Assembly (NCBI RefSeq): GCF_029961765.1
Contig: NZ_CP124681.1
Location: forward strand, 4,960,001-5,024,000
Reading direction: 5' to 3'
Origin: Nocardioides sp. QY071
GTDB lineage: Bacteria; Actinomycetota; Actinomycetes; Propionibacteriales; Nocardioidaceae
Length of the DNA: 64,000 nucleotides
In this document: positions 11,371 to 13,794 of the stretch, one piece after another
Layout of the letters: each line of letters starts with the position of its first letter
Numbering within the stretch: position 1 is the first letter of the stretch
Translations under genes and position numbers: made by a program
The notes under the pieces: model-generated
What the model was told of the DNA's origin: nothing
What the model saw: only the letters and a program-made list of their open reading frames with translations
Database searches by the model: none

Positions 11371-11625
11371 TCAGGTGTCCTCGGGCGCCGGGTCGCGCGG
11401 CGCCGGCGCCGGTCCGTGCCGGGTGACAGCCTGGTGCAGGGGCAGGGCGATGTGGCCCCGGCGGCGCACACCGGTGGCCGCGTCGACGACGTAGAGCCAC
11501 ACCACGCCGGGGACGGCGGAGCGGGCGAGCTGCACCCGGCACCGGTTCGAGATCCCCGGCAGCGTGACGACGTCACCGGGTTCGAGCTGGGCGGCGGTGA
11601 CGGTCTCGTCGGTGCCCTCGTCCAT
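11371..11625 (-). CDS. Small hypothetical protein
   Basis: 84 residues starting at MDEGTDETVTAAQLEPGDVV. It contains short beta-strand-like segments (DVVTLPG, CRVQLARSAVPGVVWLYVVD, RRRGHIALP) and a Pro/Ala-rich tail. I do not recognise the family; it resembles small SH3-like beta-barrel proteins but this is only an impression. It is divergent from the arsR gene, with the candidate ArsR operator in the 107 bp between them, so it may be co-regulated. A longer in-frame start at 11697 would run over that operator. Confidence 0.5.
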   Translation of the reverse strand: MDEGTDETVTAAQLEPGDVVTLPGISNRCRVQLARSAVPGVVWLYVVDAATGVRRRGHIALPLHQAVTRHGPAPAPRDPAPEDT

Positions 11626-11670
11626 GCGGCCTGTCCGCTCCTTCGTTCGGTCCCCGTGTGGATGACGATA

Positions 11671-11684
11671 TGAAGACTTCTTCA
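11671..11684 (+). promoter_or_regulatory. Candidate ArsR/SmtB operator
   Basis: TGAAGACTTCTTCA is an inverted repeat of TGAAGA/TCTTCA with a 2-bp spacer. It fits the TGAA-N6-TTCA core of operators bound by ArsR/SmtB repressors. It lies 49 bp upstream of arsR and between arsR and the divergent small gene. The surrounding 30 bp are unusually AT-rich for this genome, as expected for a promoter. Confidence 0.65.
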
Positions 11685-11732
11685 AGTGATGTATCATAGC
11701 GGTTACAGCGACGACGAGAGGAAGGCGGGGCG

Positions 11733-12068
11733 ATGGGAGTGCCGCTCTACCAGACCAAGGCCGAGTTCTTCCGCACCCTCGGCCACCCGGCCCGGATCCG
11801 GATCCTCGAACTGCTCTCCGAGCGCGACCACGCGGTCCACGAGCTGCTCGAGCAGATCGCGATCGAGCCGAGCAACCTCTCGCAGCAGCTCGCGGTGTTG
11901 CGTCGTACGTCGCTCGTCGTGTCGCGCCGCGAGGGCACCGCCGTCGTCTACTCCATCAGCGCGCCCGAGGTGCGCGACCTGCTGCTGTCGGCGCGCAGGA
12001 TCCTGGTCGGGCTCGCCGAGACCCGCACCGACTTCGAGGACGAGCTGATGGTGCCGGGCACCCGATGA
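11733..12068 (+). CDS. ArsR-family transcriptional regulator
   Basis: 111 residues with the ArsR winged helix (KAEFFRTLGHPARIRILELLSERDHAVHELLEQI...NLSQQLAVLRRTSLVVSRREGTAVVYSIS). There is no obvious cysteine metal site in the recognition helix; the inducer may not be a metal. It is followed immediately by a SulP transporter gene through an 11-bp tandem repeat that couples the two genes. The likely operator is TGAAGACTTCTTCA at 11671-11684. It probably represses both genes in response to an anion or redox signal; this is inferred from gene order. Confidence 0.87.
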   Translation: MGVPLYQTKAEFFRTLGHPARIRILELLSERDHAVHELLEQIAIEPSNLSQQLAVLRRTSLVVSRREGTAVVYSISAPEVRDLLLSARRILVGLAETRTDFEDELMVPGTR

Positions 12069-12114
12069 CCACCCGATGACCACCCGATGACCACCCGATG
12101 ACCACCCGATGACC
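12060..12114 (+). repeat. Five tandem 11-bp repeats forming a stop-start ladder between arsR and sulP
   Basis: ACCCGATGACC is repeated exactly five times. Each copy contains ATGA, a stop codon overlapping a start codon. The first ATGA (12065-12068) holds the arsR stop. Each following ATG reads Met-Thr-Thr-Arg-stop, and its stop overlaps the next ATG. The last ATG (12109) opens sulP as MTTVLARL. The ancestral junction was probably a single ATGA overlap that has since expanded. Because each unit is a self-contained minicistron, changes in copy number would not break either gene. Confidence 0.85.
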
Positions 12115-13794
12115 ACCGTGCTCGCGCGCCTGCGCCAGCTGGCGCCGCGCCGCGCCGACTGGGCCCAGGCCGACCTGCGCCACGACCTCACCGCCGGGGT
12201 GATGGTCGCCCTCGTGGCACTCCCACTGGCACTCGGCTTCGGGGTCAGCTCGGGTGTCGGCGCCGGCGCCGGCATCGTCACGGCGGTCGTCGCCGGTGCC
12301 GTCGCCGCGGTCTTCGGCGGCAGCCACGTCCAGGTCAGCGGACCGACCGGCGCGATGACCGTCGTCCTCATCCCCATCGTCGCCGCGCACGGCGCCGACG
12401 GCGTCCTCGTGGTCGGGCTGCTCGCCGGACTGATGCTGCTGGCGCTGGCGCTCACCGGCGCCGGCCGGGCGATCAGGTACGTCCCCGTGCCGGTGATCGA
12501 GGGCTTCACCGCCGGGATCGCCGTGATCATCGCGCTGCAGCAGCTGCCCGCCGCGCTCGGCGTCGACGTACACGCCGAGAGGATCCTGGTCCTCGCCGCG
12601 GACGCCGTACGAGCGTGGGCCCAGGCCCCGACCTGGGGCGCGCCCGCAACCGCGCTCGGCGTCGCGGCCCTCATCGTCGTGCTCGCCCGGGTGCGCGCGG
12701 GCTTCCCCGTCGCTCTCGTCCTCGTCGTGGCCGCCACCGTGGCGAACGCACTGCTGGCCGACCGCGGTGGCGATCGCCCACTCGCCACGATCGGCGAGAT
12801 CCCCTCCGGCCTGCCCGCGCCGCACCTGCCCGGGGTCCCCTGGGGCGACCTCGACACCCTCGTGCTGGCCGCGGTCGCCGTCGCGGCCCTGGGGGCGCTG
12901 GAGAGCCTGCTGTCCGCCACCGTCGCCGACGCGATGAGCGTCGGGCAGCGGCACGACCCCGACCGCGAGCTGCTCGGGCAGGGCCTGGCCAACCTCGCCA
13001 GCCCGTTGTTCGGCGGCATCCCCGCCACCGCGGCGATCGCGCGTACGGCGGTCAACGTGCGCTCCGGAGCCCGCTCGCGGCTCGCCGCCCTGACCCATGC
13101 CGTGCTGCTGCTGGCCGTCGTGCTGGTGGCGGCACGCTGGGTGGGCCAGATCCCGCTCGCCGCACTCGCCGGCGTACTGATCGCCACCGCGGTCCAGATG
13201 GTCCGGGTGTCCAGCCTCGCGCCGCTCCTGCGCGCGACCCGCGGCGACGCCGCGACCCTGGTCCTGACCGCGGTCGCCACGGTCGCCCTCGACCTCGTCC
13301 AGGCCGTTCTCGTCGGCCTGGCGGCCGCGGGCTTCTTCGCCCTTCGCCACACGGCCGCGACGGCCCGGCTGGAGGAGGTGCCGCTCGACGAGAGCGACCA
13401 TCACGACGAGGAGCGCCGCCTGCTCGACGAGCAGATCGTCGCCTACCGCCTCGACGGCCCGCTCTTCTTCGCCGCCGCCCACGACTTCCTGCTCGAGCTC
13501 GCCGAGGTCAGCCGGGTCCGGGTCGTCGTGCTCCGGATGTCGCACCTGACCGCCGTCGACGCCACCGGCGCCCACGTGCTCGCCGACACCATCGGCCGCT
13601 TGGAGCAGCGTGGCGTCACCGTCCTGCTCTCCGGCACCCGCCCCGAGCACGTCGCCGTCCTCGAGCAGCTCGGCGTGCACCGCCAGCTGGCCCATGAGCG
13701 GCACCTGTTCGCGACGACACCGGAGGCCATCGAGCACGCGCGCCTGCACGCCGCGCGGGTCGCGCACGAGCCGGGTCAGGCGGCCCGCCCCTAG
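12109..13794 (+). CDS. SulP-family anion transporter with STAS domain
   Basis: 561 residues. The membrane part (about residues 20-420) has the SulP pattern of hydrophobic helices, with GVMVALVALPLALGFGV in the first helix, QVSGPTGAMTVVL and LFGGIPATAAIARTAVNVRSG. A STAS domain follows at about residues 440-540 (VVLRMSHLTAVDATGAHVLADTI). The family carries sulfate, bicarbonate or other anions at the cytoplasmic membrane; the ion cannot be assigned here. The start MTTVLARL lies in the last copy of the 11-bp repeat, so translation depends on the stop-start ladder behind arsR. Pairing with ArsR, rather than with sulfate-assimilation genes, is notable. Confidence 0.9.
   Translation: MTTVLARLRQLAPRRADWAQADLRHDLTAGVMVALVALPLALGFGVSSGVGAGAGIVTAVVAGAVAAVFGGSHVQVSGPTGAMTVVLIPIVAAHGADGVLVVGLLAGLMLLALALTGAGRAIRYVPVPVIEGFTAGIAVIIALQQLPAALGVDVHAERILVLAADAVRAWAQAPTWGAPATALGVAALIVVLARVRAGFPVALVLVVAATVANALLADRGGDRPLATIGEIPSGLPAPHLPGVPWGDLDTLVLAAVAVAALGALESLLSATVADAMSVGQRHDPDRELLGQGLANLASPLFGGIPATAAIARTAVNVRSGARSRLAALTHAVLLLAVVLVAARWVGQIPLAALAGVLIATAVQMVRVSSLAPLLRATRGDAATLVLTAVATVALDLVQAVLVGLAAAGFFALRHTAATARLEEVPLDESDHHDEERRLLDEQIVAYRLDGPLFFAAAHDFLLELAEVSRVRVVVLRMSHLTAVDATGAHVLADTIGRLEQRGVTVLLSGTRPEHVAVLEQLGVHRQLAHERHLFATTPEAIEHARLHAARVAHEPGQAARP

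Follow-up and report, generated by a model that had tools for sequence, protein, structure and literature searches.

A strain-variable ladder of overlapping stop and start codons between arsR and sulP in a Nocardioides species

Coupling of adjacent genes through the 4-nt ATGA overlap (−4 nt) has been described by Huber et al. (2019, 2023) and by Brown and Wade (2025). In native E. coli pairs, the final 15 nt of the upstream gene are enough for reinitiation; a distance of +14 nt costs 40-80% of it, and hardly any is left at +38 nt (PMC10666635). Of five E. coli pairs from which the Shine-Dalgarno sequence was removed, three lost 60-90% of their reinitiation and one lost all of it (PMC6728339). 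Other work (PMC12548453) places coupling out to about +40 nt, with reduced efficiency. Every junction of the ladder described here is a standard ATGA overlap. Relatives hold a single such overlap between the same two genes, whereas the ladder strings together four to seven 15-nt minicistrons, their number depending on the strain. No serial stop-start chain was found in the accessible parts of Huber et al. 2019 and 2023 or Brown and Wade 2025, and a search of open-access papers yielded no description of tandem repeats at coupled junctions.

Three further systems bear comparison; of these, the mycobacterial interspersed repetitive units (MIRUs) come, along with ATGA coupling, closest to the ladder. 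MIRUs, for example that between senX3 and regX3, are start-codon repeats with an ORF that a −4 nt overlap couples to its neighbour (PMC12548453), and their repeat make-up differs between strains (PMC4213456). The likeness is one of architecture only, the ladder also carrying −4 nt coupled ORFs (the Met-Thr-Thr-Arg-stop minicistrons), together with a strain-variable copy number (five versus eight, in two genomes only). In contrast, MIRUs are 53-77 bp sequence families, presumed mobile and present at many loci, whereas the ladder has an 11-bp unit, apparently duplicated locally and unrelated in sequence to other ladders. Contingency loci, the basis of slipped-strand phase variation, share a copy-variable tandem repeat and presumably the slippage itself. 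Their on/off frameshift switching is not seen here, as the arsR and sulP frames are the same at five and at eight rungs; since the ladder never breaks a frame, it cannot switch a gene off in that way, and could at most change dose. Finally, uORFs, leader peptides and minigenes likewise place very short ORFs immediately before a gene, where they may supply it with ribosomes or keep ribosomes from it. In the ladder, by contrast, identical units follow one another, each overlapping the next, and nothing points to an attenuator or a sensed ligand.

The window analysed is a 64,000-nt stretch of Nocardioides sp. QY071 (contig NZ_CP124681.1), in which the junction comprises the following features:

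11733-12068, plus strand: arsR, ArsR/SmtB-family repressor, 111 aa; its TGA (12066-12068) sits in the first ATGA
12059-12117, plus strand: 11-bp tandem array (CACCCGATGAC), 5.4 copies, 100% match, period 11, score 118
12065-12079, plus strand: minicistron 1, ATGACCACCCGATGA (Met-Thr-Thr-Arg-stop), by direct reading
12076-12090, plus strand: minicistron 2 (Met-Thr-Thr-Arg-stop), by direct reading
12087-12101, plus strand: minicistron 3 (Met-Thr-Thr-Arg-stop), by direct reading
12098-12112, plus strand: minicistron 4 (Met-Thr-Thr-Arg-stop), by direct reading, its stop overlapping the sulP start
12109-13794, plus strand: sulP, SulP anion permease with STAS domain, 561 aa (ORF list, Pfam); ATG without an upstream Shine-Dalgarno sequence

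Both the sequence and the ORF listing place ATGA at 12065, 12076, 12087, 12098 and 12109, 11 bp apart. From each of the four intermediate ATGs the frame runs ATG ACC ACC CGA TGA and ends in a TGA that overlaps the following ATG; the fifth ATG (12109) is the start of the 561-codon ORF of sulP. The stop-start overlap that marks coupled gene pairs thus occurs five times in series. The original prediction of five overlapping stop-starts in 11-bp steps, forming Met-Thr-Thr-Arg-stop units, was borne out by sequence, ORF listing and repeat detection, although its span of 12060-12114 is slightly shorter than the array itself. Pfam assigns the upstream product to ArsR (HTH_5) and the downstream product to SulP with a STAS domain; the SulP proteins of relatives begin at the equivalent position, supporting the sulP start. 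No other pure (at least 95%) tandem array of at least three copies with a period of 7-21 bp that is not a multiple of 3 occurs in 1.66 Mb of this genome. The ladder is also the sole chain there of more than two rungs between long genes, compared with 130 plain ATGA junctions and three two-rung chains. The rarity of such arrays and chains excludes a chance origin of the ladder.

The repeat adjoins a repressor gene, and could in principle act as DNA or RNA, e.g. as an ArsR operator or structured leader, and not via translation. We regard this as very improbable. The repeat lies inside the operon, 3' of arsR, its RNA is predicted to fold in an ordinary way (z = 0.19), and other ladders (see below) have unrelated units sharing only ATGA and step. 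A noncoding RNA or attenuator was ruled out by the ordinary structure and by the lack of any Rfam family above threshold for the arsR-sulP repeat.

A second genome of the same species (G133, single contig) has eight rungs at this junction. The difference amounts to exactly +33 bp, with the flanking 3.3 kb being 99.76% identical, and the first repeat unit in G133 differs by one base (CCGCCCG). Variation between strains, as had been anticipated, is therefore observed (five rungs in one genome and eight in the other, within one species). That copy number may change without breaking any frame is true by construction, and G133 with its eight rungs retains both arsR and the sulP start. The original prediction had named an assembly artefact as grounds for refutation. 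Both assemblies are near-complete with one chromosome contig each, and arrays of ~59 and 92 bp fit within ordinary reads; the presence of different array lengths in two contiguous assemblies makes an artefact very unlikely, and the claim withstood this test.

In a close relative (G064) the junction contains two rungs at a distance of 11 bp, and the unit has diverged; six other relatives have a plain ATGA overlap between arsR and sulP. More distant relatives mostly join the two genes by a GTGA or TGATG overlap (−4 or −1), and a single overlap of one of these types is conserved across many relatives. These overlaps suggest that the gene pair was ancestrally coupled; as judged from the sequence comparison, the ancestral state is ATGA-type coupling, with the ladder a lineage-specific expansion. 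In a midpoint-rooted SulP tree, G064 does not clearly group with the two ladder strains (support 81/92), and the tree is compatible with the first duplication having arisen once or twice.

The ladder is best read as a termination-reinitiation relay, probably derived when slipped-strand duplication copied the ATGA overlap of the ancestor, and tolerated since arsR and sulP would thereby stay coupled. According to this model, the ancestral 4-nt overlap would couple arsR to sulP, and an 11-bp slipped-strand duplication across the overlap would yield a chain of 15-nt minicistrons. Later slippage would then alter the copy number, giving five here and eight in the sister strain. A ribosome finishing arsR would shift back to the overlapping ATG, make Met-Thr-Thr-Arg and stop at the next ATGA, repeating the cycle until it enters sulP. 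The chain would carry ribosomes in short hops over what would otherwise be a gap of 40 nt (the arsR-sulP distance with five rungs), with each extra rung lowering sulP output somewhat. We infer that the rungs at arsR-sulP are translated, and would expect less sulP with more rungs; tuning of sulP by copy number is plausible.

While arsR has a strong Shine-Dalgarno sequence (−8.2), the rungs have none (+0.3 kcal/mol for the last three). Given the loss of reinitiation on Shine-Dalgarno removal (PMC6728339), five serial hops may pass few ribosomes. The coupling reported to ~+40 nt (PMC12548453) makes it possible that ribosomes skip rungs.

It could also be that the variable copy number is selected and maintained in order to adjust the arsR:sulP ratio, the ladder being a contingency locus that changes dose and is not on/off. 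Copy number does differ between the two strains, the chain is closed whatever the copy number, and the pure units suggest recent or ongoing turnover. Nevertheless, the variation concerns two conspecific genomes, and most relatives retain a single overlap; hence, we consider a selected tuner improbable. Neutral slippage, tolerated as long as coupling persists, accounts for the observations just as well with fewer assumptions; it is sufficient for the copy-number variation and is taken as the default, a selected valve being possible but unsupported.

Stop-start ladders recur widely. Among 216 genomes of the genus, 69 contain three ATGA at 11-bp spacing, and the matches total well over a hundred, compared to eight for a reversed-motif control at step 11 in the same 216 genomes. 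The ladder units are of unrelated sequence (e.g. GCCAGCG, CGAGCCG, GCCCCCG) and have only ATGA and the step in common, suggesting that ladders arise independently. On inspection, 23 of 30 loci were located between two long same-strand ORFs, with rung 1 often the exact end of the upstream ORF. A six-rung scan across bacteria returned arrays that, among the matches listed, were mostly intergenic. Step-11 ladders of 6-10 rungs at sense junctions far beyond Actinomycetota, again among the matches listed, include those of Methylorubrum rhodinum and a Rhodospirillales MAG; a Planctomycetia MAG and Cupriavidus respiraculi provide more such ladders from the same matches.

A second long ladder within the genus is a pure eight-rung array of step 14 (ATGACCGACGGGCG; G021, contig 19, 75706-75807). 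Many step-14 units (six loci noted) begin with ATGAGG, which puts a Shine-Dalgarno-like GAGG ~8 nt before the next start, so that each unit could possess its own ribosome site. A 26-bp string, ATGAACCRTCGATGAACCCGTGATGA, occurs nearly identically in five genomes. The one such locus looked at has no long ORF at its last rung, and the string may thus belong to a shared noncoding or mobile element.

The step of a ladder dictates the fate of its intermediate starts. With a step of 2 mod 3 (8, 11, 14) every intermediate ATG closes on the next rung, while with a step of 1 mod 3 the penultimate ATG reads into the downstream gene out of frame. Any duplication across the overlap spares both proteins, and one of 2 mod 3 would also keep the coupling, providing an escape from purifying selection. 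The phase distribution was determined for 98 genomes of the genus, using ladders of at least three rungs with a long ORF on both sides and with orthologues merged. Built on ORF length instead of gene calls, and with thresholds set during the work, this analysis yielded 9, 4, 23, 4 and 17 sense-junction ladders for steps 8, 10, 11, 13 and 14, respectively. Steps 11 and 14 thus outnumber steps 10 and 13 by 40:8 junctions (binomial p = 1.7e-6). The ratio is 25:3 for clear tandem repeats only, and 28:3 for ladders with an upstream ORF ending exactly at rung 1; in two of the three tandem exceptions, an additional in-unit stop (ACTGA) closes the minicistron anyway. The reversed-motif control has no such bias, with none at step 10, six at step 13 and six at step 14 in the 98 genomes (the eight at step 11 come from the 216). 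Step 12 was dropped as a comparison, since most of its matches lie antisense to a coding sequence or inside one in the same frame. In a phylum sample of 246 genomes, 12 of 29 step-11 arrays lie at sense junctions versus 3 of 28 step-10 arrays. A two-rung count within 1.66 Mb of the own genome, comprising few cases, gave 1, 4 and 3 for distances of 1, 2 and 0 mod 3.

These data bear on the possibility that the array reflects neutral slippage without a relay, i.e. a harmless duplication of which any length is tolerated, with the rungs skipped and sulP reached via scanning or independent initiation. Since any duplication over an ATGA overlap spares both proteins, and coupling at +40 nt is reported in some studies (PMC12548453), such a scenario is conceivable. 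However, it predicts that sense junctions carry steps 10 and 13 as often as 11 and 14, which contradicts the ratio found, and sulP lacks an upstream Shine-Dalgarno sequence. Hence, we deem it unlikely. Equal frequencies would be expected if the ATGs were ignored, and the 2-mod-3 excess instead suggests that frame matters in ladders, as best explained by ribosomes using the intermediate starts. The originally proposed reinitiation along the ladder therefore gains indirect support for ladders as a class, from this bias and from a conserved ladder at ylxR-infB, an argument that falls short of proof for arsR-sulP itself.

The ylxR-infB ladder is located elsewhere in the same genome:

G000:C1, about 3323300-3323430, minus strand: stop-start chain of three rungs separating ylxR from infB

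Here, the end of ylxR (WSNSS-stop) falls on rung 1, followed by MSTR-stop, MSTSR-stop and MSQFVLHHPPTV-stop, and then by infB, encoding IF2. The infB gene is preceded by a good Shine-Dalgarno sequence, and an apparent hairpin is located between the ladder and this site. Chains of at least three rungs are present in 41 of the 48 infB leaders compared, which come from many actinobacterial families in a sample that leans towards relatives of the query (the 30 best search matches, with the other 20 hand-picked for spread). Steps are (11,14) in 24 leaders, (11,11) in nine and (11,17) in two, along with a few others. As a background, the same chain occurs in 3 of the 1154 segments that precede other long ORFs of the own genome, and in 15 of 9600 shuffled leaders. 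As the chain walk admits 2-mod-3 steps only, its uniformly 2-mod-3 outcome is true by construction; this circular result was replaced by a count of spacings that does not require closure, in which 88 of 98 neighbouring-ATGA spacings are 2 mod 3. Conservation of the infB leaders is highest in the ATGA columns and lower in the letters between. The ladder matched no Rfam family, and a search of open-access papers found no description of infB uORFs or of a ylxR-infB ladder. It might link the IF2 level to reinitiation.

Taken together, it is possible, if tentative, that ladders form a recurrent and convergent class of translational relay in bacteria governed by the 2-mod-3 rule. Some would be old and conserved (ylxR-infB in Actinomycetes), while others would be young and copy-variable (arsR-sulP), with slippage changing the downstream dose without a frame break. 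The 2-mod-3 rule itself constitutes evolutionary evidence for serial reinitiation on 15-nt ORFs in cells. The natural one-, two-, five- and eight-rung versions of one gene pair offer a ready test of whether ribosomes restart on an overlapping start only or are able to scan, as published models differ in the dependence on rung number and frame that they predict. Furthermore, if rung number sets dose, the ladder would let slippage tune expression while leaving every gene intact, and could be used as a synthetic biology part.

With respect to the upstream gene, ArsR (11733-12068) contains no cysteine, making metal or thiol sensing through cysteine unlikely. An inverted repeat, TGAAGA-CT-TCTTCA (11671-11684), was spotted by eye ~50 bp 5' of arsR, near the start of a divergent ORF (11371-11697), and is a candidate ArsR operator. 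In the second (plasmid) contig of the genome, 63% of 20 kb matches plasmids of Pimelobacter simplex, with 88.5% identity across the matching part.
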